From NCBI GenBank assembly GCA_028824295.1, contig JAPPED010000023.1, positions 1-64,000 of the forward strand: a stretch of DNA of 64,000 bases, read 5' to 3'. The notes beneath the pieces were generated by a model that was not told the DNA's origin, ran no database searches, and saw only the letters and a program-made list of their open reading frames with translations. This DNA comes from Rhodospirillales bacterium. Its GTDB lineage: Bacteria > Pseudomonadota > Alphaproteobacteria > TMED109. Shown one piece after another: positions 9,747-48,442 of the stretch (its first letter is position 1; each line of letters begins with the position of its first letter). The translations under genes and the position numbers were made by a program.

Positions 9747-9849
9747 CGAGGTTCACGTCGAACGCCTATCATCGCCGTTAGGTGCTGGGCATTGAAGTTC
9801 CGGTTCTCATTCTTCGCGGTCAATACCGGAAACACGAGAGATCGTTTGC

Positions 9850-10716
9850 ATGATTCAAACGCGTCGTTTCGGCCGTACAGGCCACCTGAGCACCGTCACA
9901 ATATTTGGGGCGGCCGCGCTCAAGAATGTGACCCAGGCCCGCGCCGACCGCGCACTTGAATTGCTGCTGGAACACGGCGTCAACCACATCGACACGGCAC
10001 CTCGCTACGGCGACGCGGAATGTCGGATCGGCCCCTGGATGCGAGAGCACCGTAATCGGTTCTTTCTGGCCACCAAGACCGGCCAGCGCACGCATTCGGC
10101 TGCGCGGGACGAAATTCGGCGCTCCCTAGAACGTCTCCGAGTGGACTCCGTTGACTTGCTGCAACTTCACTCGTTGGGTCATCCGGACGAGTGTGAGACC
10201 GCAATGGGTCCTCAAGGCGCCCTGGAGGCAGTGGTCGAGGCCCGTGAGGAAGGTCTGACGCGCTTCATTGGCGTCACCGGTCATGGCTGGACGATTGCGG
10301 CGATGCACTACCGAAGTCTTCAGCGCTTCGACTTCGATTCGGTCCTGCTGCCGTGGAATTTCGTGATGTACGAAAACGCGCGTTACCGCAAGGACTTCGA
10401 AACTCTTTGCAAGCTCTGCGAACAACGGGACATCGCCGTGCAAACCATCAAGTCGATCGCGCGCGGCCCCTGGGCGGTTACGGATCCCATACGGAACACG
10501 TGGTACCAGCCCTTCGAAGATCCACAAGACATTCATCAAGCTGTGCACTGGGTGCTGGGCAAACCGCAGATCTTCCTGAACACGGTTGGCGACTTGGATC
10601 TGCTGCCGGTTGTTCTCGATGCCGCGAGCCAATTCGTTGAGGCTCCCGATGACCCTGCCGTCCGAGCAATGATCAATACGAGGCGTGCTACATCGCTGTT
10701 TGGAATTGCCAACTGA
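9850..10716 (+). CDS. aldo/keto reductase-family oxidoreductase
   Basis: This 288-residue enzyme has the AKR fold signatures and the full catalytic tetrad: Asp48 ([12 protein letters not shown]), Tyr53, Lys76 (ATKTG) and His107 (LLQLHSLG). It is a little short for the family and has Leu-Leu-Pro-Trp-Asn in the region that is QxxYN in many members. It would reduce a carbonyl or oxidise an alcohol with NADP(H) in the cytosol. It stands alone, so the substrate cannot be inferred. Confidence 0.85.
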
Positions 10717-11004
10717 TTGGTGCGCGCTGCAAGGCTCGACCGGTGCCAACGCGTTCCGACCAGGCACCGACAACGCCGAACCGCCCCACCGGAAAAGAAG
10801 TGACCGTGCTGTCGATTACGACAATTCCGCTACTTGATAGCGGGGGCCTTCGTAAGGAGCCCCGGTACCGTGATGGGCCCCCTGAAACCGCCGTTTGAGC
10901 GTCCCGAACGCCCACTCCTCGATCCATCGCCGGCGCACCGCCAGCCGACTCCTGCCCCCGTGGACCAAGAGGAGACATGACTCGGTCATGCAACGGAAGT
11001 GCGA

Positions 11005-36876: not shown

Positions 36877-39414
36877 TCAGGTGGTATCACGGCGGGCTGC
36901 CGGCGGCGGCTTGACGTCGTGCACGTAGTTTCGAGTCGCGAGAAACTTGGCATAGCTGGCGAATGCTGCGTCGACCCCGTCGGCGGTCAGGCCGTAGTCA
37001 TCCAGAGTGTATCGGTGTCGTGGCTCCCGCCGCCGCCGTTCCATCTGCCGGTCCAGCCAACCGGTCATCTCGTTCACGGCCGACCGCGTGAGCGACCACC
37101 CGAACCGACCGTAGATGGCCTCTACTACCGCCATCGGATCGCGAACCAGCGCATGGTAGTTCACGTCCACCCAGCGGGCTTCCAACTCCGGATGCGACTC
37201 CCGAAACCGGATTCCCCGGTCCAGCATCCGGCTCATGAACGACAACTGCTCGGCACCGACCTCGGAGGGAACAACCCGATCGCTGTTGAGCGAGCGAATT
37301 CGTTCCACCAGGCTGTTCCACGATCCCATGAATTGTATCGGCTCCCGGTGGGTCTGAATGAACAGGGCGTCGGGATAGGTTGCCATCAAGGTATCGAGTT
37401 CCATCAGATGGAAGGGCATCTTAAGTAGCCACTGCCCGCCGTGCCCCGGAAAGCGCTGCCTACGCTGCCAGTTGAAGTGCTGCATGGTGCGCCGATGGAA
37501 GCCATAAGCTTCGCTGGATCCACGTTCCGCCAACCAGCGCGCATACCCCGGAACAGGAAACTGGGCGAGGAAGACCCAGGTCGTGAAGGTCATTCGGAAG
37601 ATCGGGTAGTCCTCTTCCGGTTCATCCATGTCAAAGTCGTGAATCCCGGCGAACACTTCGGCGAACCGAGAGGCACGGAAGATTTCCTCTGTCCGAATCC
37701 GGCGGGGGTCTGCAGGGGTGCCGCCGACGCCCGCATAATCGCCGTCCGGCAGCACCGGCTCGATGTACTCGTATTGCCGCAATGCCCAGAACCGAGGGTC
37801 TCGGGCCAGCAGGCGATGGAGATACGTGGTGCCGGTACGGTTGATCCCGACAATGAATACCGGCCGGATAACCTTCTCACGGTCAATTTCGGGGTGGCGC
37901 AGTCGCTCACCGGCAAGTGCTGCATTGCCGCGCAGGAAACGGCTCAGGCTGTATACGGTATCGGCCAGCCTGTCCTGCTGCAGCCTGACTCCGGGCTCCT
38001 GCAACGCCTGGACCAACTGCTCCAGACCCTCCCGCATCCACGCGGGATACGTGGCCTCGAAAGCTACCCCCTCGTCCTTCGCGTACTGTTCCGCTCGGCT
38101 GATCAAACCGTCGAAGTCGAGGCTGCTTTGATGAACTGAATATGGCCAATCCTCACGGTGGGCCCGAATCCATCGGTGGGAGCGTCGAAGCTTGGTCAGG
38201 GCGCCCATCCATTTGATGGGAAACGGACAGTCCTCGCGAATGGCGCGGTCGCACATCGGGAGCTGGTCCGCAGGCTTGTTCCTGCTGAACCAGTACTTCC
38301 CGAAATGATCCAGCACCGCCCAGTGGCCATGCAGCGGTGATCGCTGACCGTAGGCCTGACACGCGCGCTTGAATTCCTCGTAGGAAACCTCGGGCCAGTA
38401 CAATCCGAAGTCCGCCGGTTCCAGATCGTGGTGATCCAGTTCCGGATTGCAGCAGTGGTAGATCGTGAAGCGCCGGCTCGCGTTCAGGGTTATCGCCACG
38501 CAAATTCGGGCTACCGTATCGACGACTTCGTTGCTGGACCGAAACGAGAATCCTTTCGGCATGATTCCGATTTCACCGACCGCGGCCAGTATCTTTATGG
38601 AAAGGTCATGTGCCGGCGTGTAGCCGCTACTTGACAGACCGGTTTGCGGGAGACGGAAAATCGCCAACGGCATGCCTGCCTGCTGGGCAAACAAGAGGAT
38701 TTGTTCGGACACCAACTTGCTCCAGGGATAGCCGAGCAAACCGATTGGGAACATCCGCTTCATGCAGGTCAGATCCGGTTGCATTTGATGCCGGATCCGA
38801 CTCTGCTTGAACTCGTGTGCGAAGGAAAAGAAGTATTGCGGAAACACGCCCATTGAGGATGCGTAGTACAGGTACTTGTAGCGGGTCCGGAGGCACAGCT
38901 CCAGCACGTTACGAAGGCTGAGCGTGTTGACCTCGCGGATGCCCTTGTAAGAAGAAGAGAGCGTGATATCAGCGGCGAGATGATAGACCGCGTCGATCCG
39001 CCCGCACAAATTGTCAAACTTGATATCGTCAAGCCCGAATCGCGATAGCCCGATATCACCAGGGACTGCGCGGATCCGCGGTGCGAAGTCATCATCCCAG
39101 ATTTCCGCCTCGGACATCGCACGGCGGATACGGTCGATGCCGCGCTCCGAATCTTCGGCGCGAACCAGGCAGTACACGACTACACGGGAATCCTGCCGAA
39201 GGAGCTCGTACAGGAAAAAACGTCCAATGAACCCCGTACCACCGGTGAGCAGTACCTCTCGAATGTCCGTTGGAGGAACCGCCGCAGACGGGGCTTCTTC
39301 ACTGATGACATCGTGGACAAACCGGCGCAGCGCGTTGACATCTCTCTGGCAGTCGGGCGGAAGTTCCCCTGCAAGCGGCGATACCGCCGTGTCCGCAACG
39401 GCCTGGTCGGTCAT
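36877..39414 (-). CDS. thioester reductase-sulfotransferase fusion, third gene of the PKS operon
   Basis: The 845-residue protein starts at the ATG at 39414 (MTDQAVADTAVSPLAG), 35 bases after the radical SAM stop. Residues 45-400 are a thioester reductase/male-sterility type NAD(P) domain: VLLTGGTGFIG near residue 53, YASSMGVF, and the catalytic Tyr-Lys in LGYPWSKLVSE near residue 226. A linker of about 110 residues follows. Residues 515-800 are a sulfotransferase (PF13469-like): PAPS 5'-phosphate loop FIVGINRTGTTYLHRLL near residue 521 and 3'-phosphate motif QTHREPIQFMGSWNSL. The expected job is to reduce the ACP-bound chain to aldehyde or alcohol and sulfate a hydroxyl. No thioesterase exists in the PKS, so this is the likely release enzyme. 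Confidence 0.9.
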   Translation of the reverse strand: MTDQAVADTAVSPLAGELPPDCQRDVNALRRFVHDVISEEAPSAAVPPTDIREVLLTGGTGFIGRFFLYELLRQDSRVVVYCLVRAEDSERGIDRIRRAMSEAEIWDDDFAPRIRAVPGDIGLSRFGLDDIKFDNLCGRIDAVYHLAADITLSSSYKGIREVNTLSLRNVLELCLRTRYKYLYYASSMGVFPQYFFSFAHEFKQSRIRHQMQPDLTCMKRMFPIGLLGYPWSKLVSEQILLFAQQAGMPLAIFRLPQTGLSSSGYTPAHDLSIKILAAVGEIGIMPKGFSFRSSNEVVDTVARICVAITLNASRRFTIYHCCNPELDHHDLEPADFGLYWPEVSYEEFKRACQAYGQRSPLHGHWAVLDHFGKYWFSRNKPADQLPMCDRAIREDCPFPIKWMGALTKLRRSHRWIRAHREDWPYSVHQSSLDFDGLISRAEQYAKDEGVAFEATYPAWMREGLEQLVQALQEPGVRLQQDRLADTVYSLSRFLRGNAALAGERLRHPEIDREKVIRPVFIVGINRTGTTYLHRLLARDPRFWALRQYEYIEPVLPDGDYAGVGGTPADPRRIRTEEIFRASRFAEVFAGIHDFDMDEPEEDYPIFRMTFTTWVFLAQFPVPGYARWLAERGSSEAYGFHRRTMQHFNWQRRQRFPGHGGQWLLKMPFHLMELDTLMATYPDALFIQTHREPIQFMGSWNSLVERIRSLNSDRVVPSEVGAEQLSFMSRMLDRGIRFRESHPELEARWVDVNYHALVRDPMAVVEAIYGRFGWSLTRSAVNEMTGWLDRQMERRRREPRHRYTLDDYGLTADGVDAAFASYAKFLATRNYVHDVKPPPAARRDTT

Positions 39415-39449
39415 GCATTCGATCCCTGGATGTGCGGCCCGGCAGTTCC

Positions 39450-41198
39450 TCAGGCCGCCGGCAACCGCGCCTGCTGCGCAGCCTGCACGTTGATGGCCGT
39501 GCGGAAAGAGTCCAAGGCGGTGTCGATTCCATCGCTGTGGTAGCGGAAGTCGCCCGGGATCGACTTGTAACGGGTGTTGACGTCCGCGAACAGTCTTTGT
39601 CGCAGGACGTCGACGTGCTCCGGCTGTTCGGCACACGCGGCCGCGTCTTCTTTGAACGACTCCAGTTCCTCTGCCAGAAATTCCTTGAAGTCATGGATCG
39701 CGATTTGCTGGCGGGTGATCTTCTCGAAGTGGTAACCCAATGCCGCCAGCCGGATGGCCTTTGGAAGCATGCGGGGATGCTTTCTCGATACCTCCGCCAC
39801 GTACTTCGTGTAGGCCGGGACCTGCTCCGGGGAAAGACGTCCGCGCACAAGCATGAGGTCCGTGAAGACCGCGTTCTTGCTCTTGGGTTTCTGCAGGTGC
39901 GGTACCGGCTTCAAGTGTTCGAACAGCGTCAGGCAGCGGCTGAAATAGTTCTCCAGTGTCGGATCGTAGAGCGTGGAGGTCACGCGCCGATATCCTTCGA
40001 GCAACGTCCGGTGATCCAGTTCCGTCTTGAAGTTCAGAATGGTGGCCTGGGTCCCGATCGCCACATTGAGCAGGCGGCCTTCATCCTGAAGGCGCTTGTA
40101 CATGTCCGTGCCCTTCAGTGCCGTAAGGAGATAGATCGGGGCCACGGGAATCCCGGTCGCCTGGATGAACTCGATCTGGATGTCGAACACGGTTTCGTCA
40201 TCGCCGTCCAGACCCAGGATGAAACCTCCCTGCACCTGCATGCCCTTGCGTTGGATCCTCCGGACTGCCCGAAACAGGAAGTTCTCTTCTTCCTTGCTGG
40301 TGTTCTGGGGTTTCTTCGTCTTGAGCAGAGCCTCAGGGTTGGGGGTCTCGATTCCCAGGAACACGGTGTCGAAGCCGGCCTGGATCATGGCTTCCATGAG
40401 GTCGTCCATGCGCGCGAGATTCAGGCTTGCCTCGGTGCTCAGGAGGAACGGGTAACCGCGCACCTGTTGCCATTCCGCCAGTACCGGCAGCAGATTCATT
40501 GCGTCACGCTTGTTGCCGATGAAATTGTCATCGACGAGGAACACGGGGCCCCGCCAGCCAAGTTCGAACAGAACGTCGAACTCGCGCACCATCTGATCTG
40601 GTGACTTGGTCCGGGGCACCCGGCCGTAGAGCTTGGTGATGTCGCAAAACTCGCAATCGAATGGACATCCGCGTGAGAACTGAACCCCCATCGAGTGATA
40701 GCTCTTCATGTCGATGAGGTCGAAGCGCGGGATCGGCGTTCGGCTCACGTCCGGTTTCCGCGGTTCCCGATACATCTTCTTCGGTGTGCCGTTCTCCAGG
40801 TCGCGCAGAAACTGGGGGAATGTCTCTTCGGCCTCGTCCAGCACGAAGTAATCGACACCGCGGATCTCATCGTGAAATGTGGTCGGATGCGGCCCACCGG
40901 CCACGACCGGCACCCCGGCCCGAATGCAGCGCTCGATGACCGTCTGGAGGGATACTCGCTGCACAATCATGGTGGACGTAAACACCATGTCGGCCCATTC
41001 CAGGTCCGAGTCGGTCACGGGGTCCACGTTCATGTCCACGACACGGAGGTTGTATTTCGGTGGAAACATGGCCGCGATGGTCAGGAGGCCCAGCGGCGGA
41101 AAGGCCGCCTTGATTCCCACGAATTCCAGCGCGAAGTTCGCTCCCCAGTAGGTATGGGGGTGCTCCGGATAGACCAAGAGCGCGTTCCGCATGGCCAC
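39450..41198 (-). CDS. B12-binding radical SAM enzyme, second gene of the PKS operon
   Basis: The 582-residue protein has an N-terminal cobalamin-binding Rossmann domain (residues 5 to about 140, LLTIAAMFPPKYNLRVVDMNVD and AGGPHPT). The radical SAM domain follows, with the 4Fe-4S cluster motif CPFDCEFC (CxxxCxxC) near residues 177-184, the SAM-binding VDDNFIGNK and TEASLNLA, and GFILGLDGDD. The C-terminal part looks like DUF4070, as in the HpnP/BchE-like group. Such enzymes methylate unactivated carbons, make C-C bonds or open rings. It lies 8 bases after the PKS stop, so its substrate is probably the PKS product or its carrier-bound form; the DxHxxG B12 ligand motif is not evident. Confidence 0.92.
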   Translation of the reverse strand: MAMRNALLVYPEHPHTYWGANFALEFVGIKAAFPPLGLLTIAAMFPPKYNLRVVDMNVDPVTDSDLEWADMVFTSTMIVQRVSLQTVIERCIRAGVPVVAGGPHPTTFHDEIRGVDYFVLDEAEETFPQFLRDLENGTPKKMYREPRKPDVSRTPIPRFDLIDMKSYHSMGVQFSRGCPFDCEFCDITKLYGRVPRTKSPDQMVREFDVLFELGWRGPVFLVDDNFIGNKRDAMNLLPVLAEWQQVRGYPFLLSTEASLNLARMDDLMEAMIQAGFDTVFLGIETPNPEALLKTKKPQNTSKEEENFLFRAVRRIQRKGMQVQGGFILGLDGDDETVFDIQIEFIQATGIPVAPIYLLTALKGTDMYKRLQDEGRLLNVAIGTQATILNFKTELDHRTLLEGYRRVTSTLYDPTLENYFSRCLTLFEHLKPVPHLQKPKSKNAVFTDLMLVRGRLSPEQVPAYTKYVAEVSRKHPRMLPKAIRLAALGYHFEKITRQQIAIHDFKEFLAEELESFKEDAAACAEQPEHVDVLRQRLFADVNTRYKSIPGDFRYHSDGIDTALDSFRTAINVQAAQQARLPAA

Positions 41199-41206
41199 GG
41201 CCCCTC

Positions 41207-44200
41207 CTATCCCGCCGCCTCGAGCCGTAACGGGGGCGATTCCGCTACAGCGACATCGACGTCCTTCGGAAAGTGGTCCTCCGGCGCGCTCGCGAAACGC
41301 GACGGTGCCCGCTGCAGGCGTTCCGCAAAGACGGGCGACGTGTCCGTTACCTCCCTTGCCGGATCATCGGACGAGATCTCCTCCTCCTCATCCTTTCCGT
41401 GGATGATCCCCTGCGCCAACGACAGCGCCGAAGCTGTCGTCATGAGTTCAAGCGCGCTCACCCGGTAATTGAACTGCGTCTGGATAAACGTTCCCAGCTC
41501 GGCAACCGAAATCGAGGTGAGACCGAAGCTGGACAGTGGCTCTTCGACGCCACCCTCGTCATGACCGCACAGCTCCGCCACCTTCGCGGCAATCTGCGCC
41601 GCCACGCTCTCGAGCGTCTGTTCTCCGGTCATGCCGGCCTCGAACGCATCCTGATTGCGCATCAGGCGCCCAATGCGCATGTAGTCCGGGAGGTCAACCG
41701 TCCACGACGGACGCTCGAACAACACCGAGACAAGATGGTCCGAGTCCGCCATGGCGCGGAGCGCGAAGTCCAAATTGGAAACAGCGAAATCACTGCTGAT
41801 TGCCGGCAGGCCGGCCGCCCGCATCATGCGGAGCACCGGCAGGCTACGCGCGGCCATGCCGGCGTCGGCGACGGCGGCCATGTTGTATGAAAGGCCCGGC
41901 AAGCCCTGCTGACGGCGGCTCGCAGCCAGTCCGTCGAGAAAAGCGTTGGCGGCGCCATAGTTGATCTGGCCCGGGTTGCCGAGGACCGAGGCGGACGACG
42001 AGAACAGCACGAAATGGTCGATCGGGTGGCCCTTGGTGGCCCGATGCAGGTGGAGCGCACCACGAGCCTTAGGGGCAAACACATTTGCAAGTGACTCGGC
42101 CGAAAGATCGTCGAGCAGGCAGTCGTCGAGGGATCCGGCAAGATGGAACACGCCCTTGAGCGGCCGCTGGAGCTGGCCAATACAGCGCTGAACGTCTTCC
42201 TCGACCGATACGTCTCCCACAACGAAGTCGAATTCTACATCCTCATCCATGTAGGCGAGTGCGCTGTGCCAGCGAATCCACTCGGCATCCCGGCCGTGTT
42301 CCGGATTGCGGTCCATCAGGGTGAGGTGGCGCGCCCCCAATGCCGCAAGGTATGGCAGCAGGCGGCGGCCGAATCCGCCCTGACCGCCCGTTAGCAGATA
42401 GGTTGCAGCCGGATCGAACAGCGGTCGCACGTCCGCGATCGGCGCGCCCAGCGGACCGGAGCCCTGCGGAGCCCGCAGGACCAGCTTGCCCTGATGCCGG
42501 CCGGTGGTCATCAACCGCAGGGCCTTCGCGAATTCTTCGTACGGAAATACAGTGACCGGCAATGGCGGCACGGCACCGCCTTCTATCAGGTCGACACAGG
42601 CGACTGACAACTCCCGTGCCAAGGCCGGGTCATCGGCCATCAGCCGGTCCACATCGATGGCCGCGAACCGCAAGTTCTTGCGGAACACCCGCAGGCCGAG
42701 TTCGTTGTCGGCATAGATATCGACCTTGCCGATCTCGCACAGCCACCCGCCGGGACGCAGCGCCTCGAGACATAAATGGACATGGCGCCCCGCCAGGGAG
42801 TTCAGCACGACGTCCACGCCCTCTCCTCGGGTGGCCACCATCAGTTCGTCGTGCCAGTCGAAACTGTGCGAATCAAAGGCTGCCCGCACACCAAGTGACT
42901 GCAGCTGCGCGCGCTTTTCCTCGGTTCCGGCAGTAGCGTAGATTTCCGCCCCGACGTGTTTGGCCAAAGCGATGGCGGCCTGTCCCACTCCGCCCATCGC
43001 CGAATGGATCAGGACCCGCGCCCCTTTCCGCAAGCGGGCCAGATGGATCAAAGAGTAGTACGCGGTGACATAGACCGACAACGATGCTGCGGCCTCGTCC
43101 ATGTTGATACCGTCGGGCTTGCGGAACACGCGGTATTGGCTGGCCACCACGCGATTCGCGATGCAGCCGCCCTGGATGAAAGCCACCCGGTCTCCGACGC
43201 CGTGATCCTGAACAGCTGACCCGACCCGACGTACGACCCCGCTCCCCTCCATGCCGACCTCGTGCCCCAGGGCTGAGCGCTCATACGCCAATGCCGGCAA
43301 CAGCCCCAGCGTCACCATGATGTCGCGGAAGTTGAGTGCAGCGGCAGCGACGTCGATCTCCACGTCTTCCGGACCCAACGGCGGAAGTTCGTACGTCTTC
43401 ATCTCGAGGCCATTGATCTGCCCCGGATTGTCGAGCGTCAGGCGGTACGTTGGCAGGGTGCCGGCAGGGATCCGCGCATAGCGCTCCCGGAAACTGACCA
43501 TTCGCGGCACCCAGACGTCATTCTTCCGCACTGCCAGTTCGCGTTCCCGCACGTCGTGGTGCATCAGCCAGTGCAGCGTCTGGAGATCGTCCCGGTCACC
43601 CAGATCCACCAGGCGGAAATCGAGTTTCGCCTCCTCGTCAATTTCCACAGCCATGCTGCGGACCGCTCCCCACAACACGCTGCCGCGCGGATCCTCTACA
43701 TCGTGGACGGCGCGGCGCGTGATGACGGTCAATCGGCACGGGCAGTCCGCGTGCTCAATCCGGTAGGGGACCAGGGCCTGGACAAACGCGACAAAACGGG
43801 ATGCCGCTCTCTCCCCTGTCGGGTCTTCCGGATCCTGGCCGCAGAAGTAGTCGACCGCCTGCAAGTTGGCGGCCTCCGGCCAGTCCTCCAGCGCATGGAA
43901 ACGACCAGCCAGCAACGCTTCTTCGGGGAGCGCGTGCGCATTGTCATGGGGCTTAAAGAACGCCGACCAAGCCGGTACCCAACTTTCGGGCTCGCCCAAG
44001 ATCCATCGGGGACTGCGGAGCGCGTCGGCATCGAGTTGATCGCGGTCCGGACCGGGAGCTTGCAGCAGGGTGGCGCGTTGTCCGGCTCGAACCGCTTTCC
44101 AGCCGGGACTGGCAGAAACGACGTCGCCCTCGTCGTGCTCAACCAGCACCCAAGCGCCGGGCACCGCCAGGCTCCGCACCGTTTCCCACTCGCTTTGCCC

Positions 44201-47200
44201 GAAGCTCGCGGCCTCCCGGTGGAGGAAAATGATCTCGGCGGCGCCCGGCCGCAGCAGGCCCGCGTCCAGAGCGGCGGCATCCGCCATGTCGAATGTCGCG
44301 AAGCGCAGCGGCACGTCACAGGCATGGAAGGCGTCGTACAAGGCCCGCGTGCTCTCTTCACTGTCCCCCACGAGCCAGAACTCACTTTGCCCGGCAGTCT
44401 GCGCGAGGTTGGCGGCGCATCGTTCAAGAATGGTCTCGTCCGGCTCTCTGGAGCCGGCGAACTCGATGATGTGACAAGCGTATCGCTCGCCCTTATCCGG
44501 GTGTGTCAGCGCCGCGACTACGGTCTCGGGCTCCGGCTCCCCGCCCGGCAGCCTGTCGAGGAATTCCTGAACTGCGGGAAGCGCCTTTGGCTGCCAGCGA
44601 ACCTGGTGCTTGCTGTTCGGCAAGTCATTCCATCGCGGGTTGGACGTGAAGTACGTGTACTCGCCGATATGGGCGACGAGATCACCGGTGGCGCCGTCGT
44701 AGAAGCTGATGCTGCCGCCCGATCGTTCGCCGCGCCGAACCGAATACTGGCCCCGTTCGTTGGCGTTCATCCAGTCGTCGCTGGGCTTCGTGACATGGCA
44801 GGTAATGCGGGGCCCGGTGGGACGGCGCAAGAAGGTCACCCATTCCGCCCGCTGCGGAATCGCAAACAGGTCGGCGGCGGTCAATAGGTGATACAGGAAT
44901 ATCTGCAGCCCGCCGTCGAGCAGAGGAGGACAGGTGACGTAGCCCTCCTCCACTCCTGTCGCCCACAGCCCCTCGTCCATCTCGACGTCAAACAGGTAGG
45001 CCTTCGATACGCCGTCCACCAATACGCGCTGGATCGTCCTGAAATACGGGCCGTACTGGAATGTTTCGCTCAAGACCGATTGCAAGCGCTCGTAGAAATT
45101 CTGGTCGTCAGCAAGAATTGACTGCTCGAAGCCATCGGTGTCAATGTCCGTCAATCGCATCGGCACGCTGAGCGCCGGCTCGGTGCTCAGCACGCGCACC
45201 TTCCCGCGACAGTGGATCTCGCTGCTAGCGTCGACCTCGTAGGAACGCGAGGAAATTGTGAACGTGAACTCCTCCGGATCCGTCGGAACCGGCTGCAGGG
45301 CCGTTTGCAGCCTCACCGGCGCCTTGGGAACCGGACACGGCTGGAGAAATTCGAGCACCGTGAATTGGACCGGAACTCCGCCCAGCGCCTCAAGGATCAG
45401 CTCGATGTAGCCCGCCGCCGGCATGATCGCCGCGTGATGCACGCGATGGTCCGCCAGCCAAGGGAAGTCAGCTTCCGACAGTCGTGCTTCGAACTGCAGG
45501 TGCTCACATGGGACCCGGTGGCCGACCAGTGGTCCTTGTGAGTACTCGCCTTGCTGAACGAACATCTCGTTGTCGCAATGGAGATCCATCGTCGCCCGCT
45601 CTTCCCGAGGATGTCCGGGCAGGCGATCTGCGATCGGCTGCGGACGCGGATACTGGGCCGCGAAGTCCAGGGGAACGCCCGCCTGGAACAGTGCGCCCAG
45701 AGCGGTCTGAAAGCCGATGCAGACATCCGTCTCTCGGGTCAGCGTCTGAATGTTGGCTGGTACCGCGCGACTGCCTTCCAAACACTGGGCGATCGTGGAC
45801 TGAAGCGCACAGTGAGGCGCGATTTCCAGCACCACGTCGGGCTGAATTTCTCGCGTGATGGTTTCCATCGCGGCAGCGAACCGCACCGGCTGGCGGATAT
45901 TTGACCACCAGTACGCGTTGTCCAGTCGCCGTGTCGGCAGTCCGGTAACCGACGACACGAACGGGACATCGGCGTCGAAGTCGAGGTCATTCAGGAACGA
46001 CAGCGCCGCCAGCGCATCGTCCTTGAGGGGCTGCATCGCGGTGGAATGAAAGGCGATGTTGCCGGGCAGCAGCTGATTCTGCAGATGCCGGTGGTTCAAC
46101 GCCGCCATGACCGGCTGCAGGGCTTCCTCTGTTCCGCAGATCACGGTGTTGGCAGGGGCGTTCTCGCAGGCGATCTCTACCTGCGGCGGTTGGTCGGAGT
46201 CGTCCTCGCCGCTGCCGAAGGCGACGTCCAGTTCCGTCAGCAGGTCTTCCACGCCCGGACGGTCGAGGCCGATCGCCAGCATGCGGCCAGATCCGGCGGT
46301 CCGCTGCTGGAGCGTGGCGCGATGAAACACCAGACGCGTGGCTTCCTGCAGCGACAGCGCCCCGCACGCGTAGGCCGCCGCGACCTCGCCCGAACTGTGA
46401 CCGACCACGCAATCCGGGTAGACGCCCCAGGTCTTGAACAGCTCCACCAGGGCACACTGGATCATGTAAATGACCGGCTGCGCCAGCCGAACCTCGTTCA
46501 GCTCGGTCTGCGGTGCGCCGAAGCAGGCCTCGCGCAGCGAGATTTCCGAATGTTCGCGCCAATGCGCCTCGACGGCATCGATGGCCCGCCGGAACACAGG
46601 CTCAGCGTGATACAGGTCGCGACCGCACCCTGCCCACTGGGTGCCCTGACCGGAAAACACCATCGCCACGCGGCGCCCGCCGTCGTCGACCGAGTGGACA
46701 GGCGGCGGGTCCTCGATAAAGGCCTCAAGCGCTTCGACCAGTTCCTCGCGGTTCCGGACCGCGAATGGCGCGCGCATGGCGAAATGCGTGCGGCGGCGAC
46801 CGAGATTGCCGGCCAGGGTGTAGAGGTCGGGTTCGTGTTCGGCGACGAAGTCTCGCAGCCGCCGTGCGCTCTCGGTGAGTGCGCTGCCAGTGCGGGCCGA
46901 CAGCGGAATCATGAACCCGGCCTCCGGCGCGAGCGAAACCGACCAGGTCCGGGGACGGGCCGGGCGATACTCGCGGACCACGCAGTGCCCGTTGGCACCG
47001 CCAAAGCCGAACGAGTTGATTCCCACGACCACTGGGCGCTCGGGAAACGGCTCGCATTCGGTCTGCACCTGCATGGGACAGCGATCGAAGTCGATTTCCG
47101 GATTGGGCACCACGAAGTTCTTGGAAATCGGTGCAAATGTCCGCCTCTGCAACATCAGCAGGACCTTGAGCAGGGCGCAGTGGAACGCCGCGGCTTCCAT

Positions 47201-48283
47201 GTGCCCCAGGTTGCTCTTGACGCTTGCAATCCGCAGCGAGGTCTCTCGCTCGGGTCCGGCAAACGCGTCCGTAATGGCGTTTCCTTCGATCCGGTCCCCC
47301 ACGACAGTGCCGGTGGCATGGGCCTCGATGTAGTCGAACTCCTGTGGCGCGCGACCGGCCCGGGCGCCGGCCACTCGCATCAGCTCCGCCTGGGCGTGAC
47401 GGGTGGGGGCTGTGATGTAGCGCCCCTGCGCCAAACCCTCAGTCCCGTCGGCAGCGCCGGCCGCATTCACGGCGGTAGCCTCGATGACGGCGTGAATGGG
47501 ATCCCCGTCGCGCTCGGCTGCAGTCAGCGGTTTGATGGTGAAGACGAACGCCCCTTCCGAGCGCATGTAACCATTGGCTTCCGCGTCGAAGGAATGGCAC
47601 TTCCCGTCAGGGCTGATCACTCCCAGGGCGTTGAACGAGGCGCTCAGCCTGGCAGTTCCCATGTAGTTGACCGAACCGACCAGCGCCTGCTCGCAGTCAC
47701 CGCGCTGGAGCCCGTTCATTGCCGCATGGAGAGCAGTGAGGCTCGCCGAACATGCCGTGCAATAGGTCGTGGAGGACCCCATCAAGTTGAAGTGATAGGA
47801 GATACGGTTGGCGAGCATGGCCAAGCTGATGCCCGTCACGTCGAACGGCTGGGCGCCCCGCATCGGCCGCCAGTTCGAGACGGGCGGTACTTGCGCGCCG
47901 ATGTAGACGCCGGTCGGGCTGTTGCGGAGCGAATGGAGGTCCCAGCCCACGCGCTCGAACGCTTCCCAGGCGCATGTCAGCAACATCCTCACCTGAGGAT
48001 CCGTCGACAGCATTTCGCTTTGGGACAGCCCGAAGAGACTGCGGTCAAACAGCTTCTCTTCGTCGTCGCGAATGAGACCCTCGTAGGCGCTGGCAAACCG
48101 ACCTGGGCCGGAGAAACCGCCGATCGGCCGGTAACCTCTCCCGTAGCGATCGGTTATGGGTTCCTGGACGATTTCGCGCCTGCTAAGCAGATCCCAGAAG
48201 TCGGAGTCGGTGTGGATGCCGCCAGGCAAACGGTAGCTGTACCCGGTAATGGCAACCGGGAAATTGAACTCCTGTGAACTCAT
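41207..48283 (-). CDS. single-module, FAS-like, fully reducing type I polyketide synthase
   Basis: The 2358-residue protein starts at the ATG at 48283 (MSSQEFNFPVAITG); a TTG five codons upstream is possible. Domain order: KS 8-435 (Cys178 in CTACSASL, His in EAHATGT, Lys/His in KSNLGH); AT 560-880 (GQGTQW, Ser630 in GHSSGE, IAFHS, a malonyl-type motif); DH 930-1160 (His946 in DHRVHHAAIMP, Asp1123 in LLDGGLQ); a pseudo-methyltransferase about 1275-1445; a pseudo-KR 1480-1590; ER 1610-1935 (SAMGGVGQAA); KR 1960-2180 (TGGQGGFG, Ser in FSSSASVLG, Tyr2109 in NYGAANAF); ACP about 2215-2290 (Ser2257 in FGLTSISVAEL); then an acidic tail of about 65 residues. No thioesterase. This is the order of animal fatty acid synthase and suggests an iterative enzyme making a reduced alkyl chain. 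The radical SAM and reductase-sulfotransferase genes follow closely. Confidence 0.96.
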   Translation of the reverse strand: MSSQEFNFPVAITGYSYRLPGGIHTDSDFWDLLSRREIVQEPITDRYGRGYRPIGGFSGPGRFASAYEGLIRDDEEKLFDRSLFGLSQSEMLSTDPQVRMLLTCAWEAFERVGWDLHSLRNSPTGVYIGAQVPPVSNWRPMRGAQPFDVTGISLAMLANRISYHFNLMGSSTTYCTACSASLTALHAAMNGLQRGDCEQALVGSVNYMGTARLSASFNALGVISPDGKCHSFDAEANGYMRSEGAFVFTIKPLTAAERDGDPIHAVIEATAVNAAGAADGTEGLAQGRYITAPTRHAQAELMRVAGARAGRAPQEFDYIEAHATGTVVGDRIEGNAITDAFAGPERETSLRIASVKSNLGHMEAAAFHCALLKVLLMLQRRTFAPISKNFVVPNPEIDFDRCPMQVQTECEPFPERPVVVGINSFGFGGANGHCVVREYRPARPRTWSVSLAPEAGFMIPLSARTGSALTESARRLRDFVAEHEPDLYTLAGNLGRRRTHFAMRAPFAVRNREELVEALEAFIEDPPPVHSVDDGGRRVAMVFSGQGTQWAGCGRDLYHAEPVFRRAIDAVEAHWREHSEISLREACFGAPQTELNEVRLAQPVIYMIQCALVELFKTWGVYPDCVVGHSSGEVAAAYACGALSLQEATRLVFHRATLQQRTAGSGRMLAIGLDRPGVEDLLTELDVAFGSGEDDSDQPPQVEIACENAPANTVICGTEEALQPVMAALNHRHLQNQLLPGNIAFHSTAMQPLKDDALAALSFLNDLDFDADVPFVSSVTGLPTRRLDNAYWWSNIRQPVRFAAAMETITREIQPDVVLEIAPHCALQSTIAQCLEGSRAVPANIQTLTRETDVCIGFQTALGALFQAGVPLDFAAQYPRPQPIADRLPGHPREERATMDLHCDNEMFVQQGEYSQGPLVGHRVPCEHLQFEARLSEADFPWLADHRVHHAAIMPAAGYIELILEALGGVPVQFTVLEFLQPCPVPKAPVRLQTALQPVPTDPEEFTFTISSRSYEVDASSEIHCRGKVRVLSTEPALSVPMRLTDIDTDGFEQSILADDQNFYERLQSVLSETFQYGPYFRTIQRVLVDGVSKAYLFDVEMDEGLWATGVEEGYVTCPPLLDGGLQIFLYHLLTAADLFAIPQRAEWVTFLRRPTGPRITCHVTKPSDDWMNANERGQYSVRRGERSGGSISFYDGATGDLVAHIGEYTYFTSNPRWNDLPNSKHQVRWQPKALPAVQEFLDRLPGGEPEPETVVAALTHPDKGERYACHIIEFAGSREPDETILERCAANLAQTAGQSEFWLVGDSEESTRALYDAFHACDVPLRFATFDMADAAALDAGLLRPGAAEIIFLHREAASFGQSEWETVRSLAVPGAWVLVEHDEGDVVSASPGWKAVRAGQRATLLQAPGPDRDQLDADALRSPRWILGEPESWVPAWSAFFKPHDNAHALPEEALLAGRFHALEDWPEAANLQAVDYFCGQDPEDPTGERAASRFVAFVQALVPYRIEHADCPCRLTVITRRAVHDVEDPRGSVLWGAVRSMAVEIDEEAKLDFRLVDLGDRDDLQTLHWLMHHDVRERELAVRKNDVWVPRMVSFRERYARIPAGTLPTYRLTLDNPGQINGLEMKTYELPPLGPEDVEIDVAAAALNFRDIMVTLGLLPALAYERSALGHEVGMEGSGVVRRVGSAVQDHGVGDRVAFIQGGCIANRVVASQYRVFRKPDGINMDEAAASLSVYVTAYYSLIHLARLRKGARVLIHSAMGGVGQAAIALAKHVGAEIYATAGTEEKRAQLQSLGVRAAFDSHSFDWHDELMVATRGEGVDVVLNSLAGRHVHLCLEALRPGGWLCEIGKVDIYADNELGLRVFRKNLRFAAIDVDRLMADDPALARELSVACVDLIEGGAVPPLPVTVFPYEEFAKALRLMTTGRHQGKLVLRAPQGSGPLGAPIADVRPLFDPAATYLLTGGQGGFGRRLLPYLAALGARHLTLMDRNPEHGRDAEWIRWHSALAYMDEDVEFDFVVGDVSVEEDVQRCIGQLQRPLKGVFHLAGSLDDCLLDDLSAESLANVFAPKARGALHLHRATKGHPIDHFVLFSSSASVLGNPGQINYGAANAFLDGLAASRRQQGLPGLSYNMAAVADAGMAARSLPVLRMMRAAGLPAISSDFAVSNLDFALRAMADSDHLVSVLFERPSWTVDLPDYMRIGRLMRNQDAFEAGMTGEQTLESVAAQIAAKVAELCGHDEGGVEEPLSSFGLTSISVAELGTFIQTQFNYRVSALELMTTASALSLAQGIIHGKDEEEEISSDDPAREVTDTSPVFAERLQRAPSRFASAPEDHFPKDVDVAVAESPPLRLEAAG

Positions 48284-48442
48284 CCGCCAAGCATCCAATT
48301 GAGGCGGTCTCCAGCAGTTCGGCGGCGGTGCCCGCCCACGGACGCCTAGAGAGTCAGCGACGCGTGTACCGCTGCGAATTCAACCATGGTCCTAGTTAGC
48401 GCAGCCGACCCATGCGCGTCCTAACTATCGCGATCTTCAAGA

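Follow-up and report, generated by a model that had tools for sequence, protein, structure and literature searches.

The swf cluster (swfA, swfC, swfB), first described in 2013 from symbionts of Plakortis and Aplysina sponges, encodes proteins of 2349-2361 (SwfA), 832-839 (SwfB) and 585 (SwfC) amino acids (PMC3908369). SwfA is listed in that work as KS-AT-DH-ER-KR-ACP only, and its FAS-like DPQ(I/V)R motif was pointed out. The same authors already proposed an alkyl sulfate product, possibly methylated by SwfC, and noted that standard fatty-acid workflows miss such sulfated lipids; expression of one swf cluster in E. coli led to no new compound being detected (PMC3908369). Besides this original description, swf-like GCFs have been seen in Nitrospirota, Latescibacterota and Acidobacteriota (PMC9426513). 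Like Sup, Swf is a small single-module PKS widespread among sponge symbionts, and it is one of the two such families throughout microbe-rich sponges; Sup was set apart here on the papers' descriptions, in which the two families are distinct.

This paper describes a minus-strand locus in the window, i.e., the complete 64,000-nucleotide stretch of alphaproteobacterial DNA that was analysed. The locus comprises swfA (41207..48283), encoding a single-module type I PKS/FAS, swfC (39450..41198), encoding a B12-binding radical SAM protein with a DUF4070 domain, and swfB (36877..39414), encoding a thioester reductase-sulfotransferase fusion of 845 amino acids. The swfA open reading frame spans 41207-48298; ATG at 48283 yields a protein of about 2358 amino acids, and TTG at 48298 is an alternative start. 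The swfB frame spans 36877-39636 with ATG at 39414 as the likely start, which leaves gaps of 8 and 35 bases between successive genes, in agreement with the three-gene operon proposed in the initial annotation. No non-coding RNA or tRNA was found beside swf within the window. Because the gene set, the order A-C-B and the SwfA motifs fit the published description, the trio is identified as the swf cluster of PMC3908369; membership was judged by motifs, architecture and gene order. All published SwfA signatures (DPQVR, HATGT, IAFH, GHSSGE, QCALVEL, FSGQGTQW) were found, which confirms the guess that this might be a SwfA family member, together with the expected SwfA size and architecture, the KS motifs DPQ(I/V)R and HATGT, the AT motifs, the SwfB fusion and the CX3CX2C motif of SwfC. 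The locus thus shares its proteins, domains, sizes, KS and AT motifs and the gene order of POR_0547-0550 with the published clusters, and differs from those of PMC3908369 in its alphaproteobacterial host. The pseudo-domains of SwfA, the PAPS-synthesis genes and the RND pump reported below are absent from the PMC3908369 description. As far as the literature search went, the alphaproteobacterial carriers, the linked PAPS genes, the RND link and the deletion scars in two phyla are new.

Pfam and NCBIfam profiles matched KS, AT, PKS_DH_N with a weak PS-DH, ER (ADH_zinc_N), KR and PP-binding in SwfA, B12-binding, Radical_SAM and DUF4070 in SwfC, and NAD_binding_4/Thioester-redct and Sulfotransfer_3 in SwfB, and no thioesterase in the three proteins, so that the domain sets initially assigned were borne out. 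In SwfA, the KS domain (46967..48259, minus strand, as are all features given here) contains DPQVR, TACSAS, HATGT and KSNLGH, the malonyl-type AT domain (45677..46660) FSGQGTQW, QCALVEL, GHSSGE and IAFHS, and the DH domain (44654..45532) HRVHHAAIMP and LLDGGLQ. These are followed by the ER domain (42473..43438, the ADH_zinc_N match), the catalytic KR domain (41867..42406; TGGQGGFG, FSSS, YGAAN) and the ACP domain (41411..41596; GLTSI).

The DH-ER linker of SwfA (about 400 residues) was aligned over 13 homologues and folded with AlphaFold2 (pLDDT 74, pTM 0.76). Comparison of the predicted structure with known folds revealed that residues ~1238-1418 (44045..44587) match PKS C-methyltransferases (DszA, Z 16.2; CurJ, Z 15.9), while a further part matches the DH-ER-KR region of the MAS-like synthase 5bp4 (Z 17.5), which supports its reading as a pseudo-KR at residues ~1430-1605 (43484..44011). 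In the alignment, the expected site of the SAM-binding glycine loop reads EFAGxREP and a glycine-rich loop is not conserved; therefore, the methyltransferase inside SwfA is probably dead. The modelled linker thus upholds the earlier suggestion of a pseudo-methyltransferase and a pseudo-KR between DH and ER.

The resulting domain order, KS-AT-DH-pseudoMT-pseudoKR-ER-KR-ACP, is that of animal FAS (2vz8), and the initial annotation had called the synthase animal-FAS-like. At the level of the KS this description was not supported. A KS-only phmmer search against the PDB ranked PikA1 (269 bits), Pks13 (260), GfsA (257) and EryAI (252) above animal FAS (~223), and a phylogeny of 26 KSs united all eight from Swf in one clade (100/100, stem 1.21) for which no sister group was supported, with pig FAS, MAS and modular KSs placed apart. 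The Swf KSs are thus a deep-branching lineage of their own: the anticipated grouping with FAS-like KS domains was not obtained, and neither was the grouping with ordinary modular PKSs that would have weakened the single-pathway reading. Therefore, "animal-FAS-like" covers domain order only, and an animal-FAS origin of SwfA finds no support at the KS level in the phmmer ranking and the tree. Unlike animal FAS, moreover, SwfA has no thioesterase, and release is assigned to a separate reductase-sulfotransferase. The nearest solved structure across the whole of SwfA is mycocerosic acid synthase (MAS, 9d2y/5bp4), which is likewise a single iterative module without a thioesterase and with a pseudo-KR ahead of the ER; SwfA differs in its extra pseudo-methyltransferase fold, its malonyl-type AT motif and its separate deep KS clade, and no grouping of Swf KSs with MAS was supported in the 26-KS tree.

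The catalytic motifs of SwfB and SwfC are conserved across 12-13 homologues. In the reductase domain of SwfB (38308..39255) TGxTGxxG and YxxxK are invariant, and its best solved relative is the terminal reductase of MxaA, an enzyme that yields primary alcohols. The Sulfotransfer_3 domain (37090..37863) has its nearest solved structures in 2zq5 and 2z6v and retains the PAPS-loop region and partner residues, with GINRTGTTYLHR mostly invariant and R685 and S693 invariant. SwfC carries an invariant C178xxxC182xxC185 in the homologue alignment; against curated radical-SAM families its best scores were mixed (MJ_1487, ApyD, BchE, PhpK, HpnR, HpnJ), all below the family cut-offs, and its predicted structure was too poor a model for fold comparison. 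A C-methylation of the chain by SwfC is plausible, and is a guess since the protein scores under every curated cut-off.

Fifteen related loci were found, in MAGs of Alphaproteobacteria, Nitrospirales, Latescibacterota, Acidobacteria and Rhodobacteraceae. Most of these carry the A-C-B set; it recurs in the same order across four phyla, far above chance, with identities of ~55-96% per protein among sponge MAGs, which bears out the initial reading of the three genes as a single pathway. This cross-phylum sponge distribution is shared with the GCFs of PMC9426513, where Alphaproteobacteria are not listed among the swf carriers. SwfB was found at E<=1e-100 in 3 of 385 sampled alphaproteobacterial genomes, and SwfC in five of the seven genomes of the window's genus. 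The congeners with 92-96% identical SwfB and SwfC belong to the MAG series jk18x, from Caribbean Ircinia sponges, and p16x, which by its naming is probably of the same project. In the protein trees, SwfB of an acidobacterial locus (L019) lies inside the Latescibacterota group and its SwfC adjoins a Latescibacterota locus, positions as expected under transfer between phyla.

In the window, swf is flanked by genes for an aminotransferase, a GST, a LacI regulator, DctM, an M19 dipeptidase, a TPP enzyme and a PF02504 fatty-acid-synthesis protein. These ordinary genes showed no connection to swf and were dismissed as pathway components. Since the flanks are conserved over ~10 kb in congeners, one of them without swf, a mis-binned contig is ruled out; a plasmid location was likewise rejected, as no plasmid record matched at >=60% identity and the flanks are syntenic within the genus.

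The cluster is dispensable, judged from its remnants. In the alphaproteobacterium SB0662_bin_7 (L020) the window's flanks are kept around a scar at 9809-10837 in which no more of swfB is left than its final 278 codons, and neither swfA nor swfC was found in that genome. A scar in the Nitrospira genome G428 (L076, 9676-10644) joins swfA codons ~14-54 to swfB codons ~548-823, and in another genome, G416, swfA is patchy, swfB contains a stop and swfC is absent. Both scars leave only the 3' third of swfB, from codons ~548-562 onward, a similar breakpoint in two phyla. The three genes do not always occur together: the trio recurs in most loci, and swfC is missing from some genomes, including the entire genomes of the Rhodobacteraceae symbiont G411 and its relative G418, and therefore looks like an optional tailoring step; it is also missing from PSA11D7 (PMC3908369). 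In G409, G408 and G313 swfA is split by homopolymer frameshifts or by one TGA at a Trp position, which were set aside as interruptions or consensus errors rather than new architectures. The frameshifts lie in C or G runs (L011 4290-4377, L013 2891-2991), the in-frame TGA of the G313 gene falls on a conserved Trp position within the AT region (L050, ~10528), and the break in L011 falls in the DH, close to the published POR_0547/POR_0548 split.

PAPS-synthesis genes accompany swf in some lineages. In five Nitrospira genomes (G409, G412, G416, G420, G422) a CysNC or APS kinase gene lies ~0.5-0.7 kb after swfB and encodes the sole APS kinase at E<=1e-20 in each of them, an adjacency that may have been inherited from a single event. 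The Rhodobacteraceae show a separate arrangement: in G411, CysD and then CysNC directly follow swfA, and the combination CysD-CysNC-RND was found again in G418. APS kinase also belongs to ordinary sulfate assimilation and occurs in 28 of 49 genomes of that Nitrospira family; because many of these are swf-free, it is the adjacency of the gene, and not its presence, that carries the argument. The window's genome carries genes for APS kinase and phosphopantetheinyl transferase, with the APS kinase gene located elsewhere and none near swf. The shapes of the swf-linked CysNC genes look as if PAPS formation had been the part retained. As called, CysNC in L010 (4221-5990) and L011 (12925-14679) lacks the beginning of CysN; in G420 and G422 the open frames extend further upstream than these calls, and L012 (13113-13721) encodes APS kinase alone.

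One RND exporter family is linked to swf in three lineages: a permease and adaptor adjoin swfA in G313 and separate swfA from swfB in G411, and an MFP-RND-CysD-CysNC group lies ~6 kb from the deletion scar of G428. The swf-linked permeases share 49-65% identity with the G313 pump, as compared to 33-38% for other RNDs in these genomes. No RND pump was found near swf in the window's own genome, which encodes a homologue of the G313 pump (61% identical), together with an adaptor, on another contig (G000:C18:54754-57921; L083 8746-13077). This pump is intact in all five swf-positive genomes of the window's genus and in neither of the two swf-negative congeners, one of which has a broken copy with two stops and the other no copy; the sole other match among the remaining genomes of the panel is 38% identical. 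Fisher tests of RND against swf gave 0.048 within the genus and 2e-7 over 61 genomes, uncorrected for relatedness; since the presence of swf in the panel was judged from SwfC, a swfA-swfB cluster without swfC would escape there.

Taken together, the locus is read, with a probability of roughly 0.6, as a swf member that makes a saturated chain, releases it as a primary alcohol, sulfates it and exports it, with optional methylation by SwfC; chain length, methylation site, alcohol release, sulfated position and export are all features that we infer. With its malonyl-type AT, its single ACP and a complete reductive loop, SwfA would, once primed with a short acyl unit, use malonyl-CoA iteratively to build a largely saturated long chain on the ACP. 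The SwfB reductase domain would release this chain, probably by four-electron reduction to a primary alcohol, after which the sulfotransferase domain would transfer sulfate from PAPS, supplied by an APS kinase whose gene is linked to swf in some lineages, to give an alkyl sulfate, and a dedicated RND pump with its adaptor would export the amphiphile. SwfC, where present, would probably C-methylate an unactivated chain carbon through B12/radical chemistry, a role proposed because the methyltransferase fold in SwfA looks dead. A rearrangement, oxidation or cyclisation by SwfC instead, which would alter a single step and leave the remainder of the pathway as proposed, is a less likely though serious option: its mixed, sub-threshold family scores are in keeping with it, and the 2013 tree that groups SwfC with methyltransferases, nearest HpnP (PMC3908369), argues against it.

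A hydroxyl within the chain could carry the sulfate, or sulfation could prepare an elimination. In the latter case the beta-hydroxyl of the ACP-bound chain would be sulfated and sulfate loss would give an alkene or unsaturated product, a curacin-type precedent raised in PMC3908369 and in line with the fusion of the sulfotransferase to the chain-releasing domain. This outcome is improbable, as there is no thioesterase, the fusion partner is a reductase and not a hydrolase or decarboxylase, and the sulfotransferase is of the Sulfotransfer_3 type nearest to 2zq5/2z6v; the linked exporter and PAPS genes also fit a retained sulfate, short of proof. Somewhat less remote, yet unlikely, is the incorporation of the aldehyde or alcohol into a larger membrane or surface lipid of which SwfB sulfates another part, so that swf would make a structural lipid instead of a small amphiphile for export. 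The closeness of SwfA as a whole to the solved structure of the lipid synthase MAS, and the chromosomal synteny of swf within the genus, would suit such a lipid, against which stand the deletion of the cluster in genomes of two phyla and the flanks examined, where the PAPS and RND genes alone recur and no acyltransferase, glycosyltransferase or other lipid-assembly gene does. The SwfB motifs, the PAPS supply and the RND export favour the exported alkyl sulfate. The sulfated lipid product put forward initially accordingly stands as the best inference, backed by the linked PAPS genes and the RND exporter, with the published expression without a product on the other side.

On a wider and more tentative view, for which the odds fall slightly short of even, swf would be the core of a complete pathway with its own PAPS supply and RND exporter, passed between phyla inside sponges, making an exported (methyl-)alkyl sulfate common in sponge holobionts, and repeatedly lost when unneeded. 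The genomic context sharpens the known question of the swf product: the linked PAPS synthesis and exporter point the search to an anionic, exported sulfated lipid and show which genes are worth adding to swf expression, and an alphaproteobacterial carrier with close relatives that have clean deletions enables comparisons.

Two further PKSs were encountered. A Planktothrix agardhii plasmid encodes a PKS (L063 5560-13092) whose in-line C-terminal sulfotransferase shares 32% identity with the SwfB sulfotransferase. The window's genome contains a separate PKS frame of ~3484 codons with two KSs (G000:C3:135291-143783; L001, L002), with a phosphopantetheinyl transferase gene a few kb off; relatives of its KSs are found in sponge MAGs of Nitrospira and Acidobacteria, making this another possible cross-phylum PKS.
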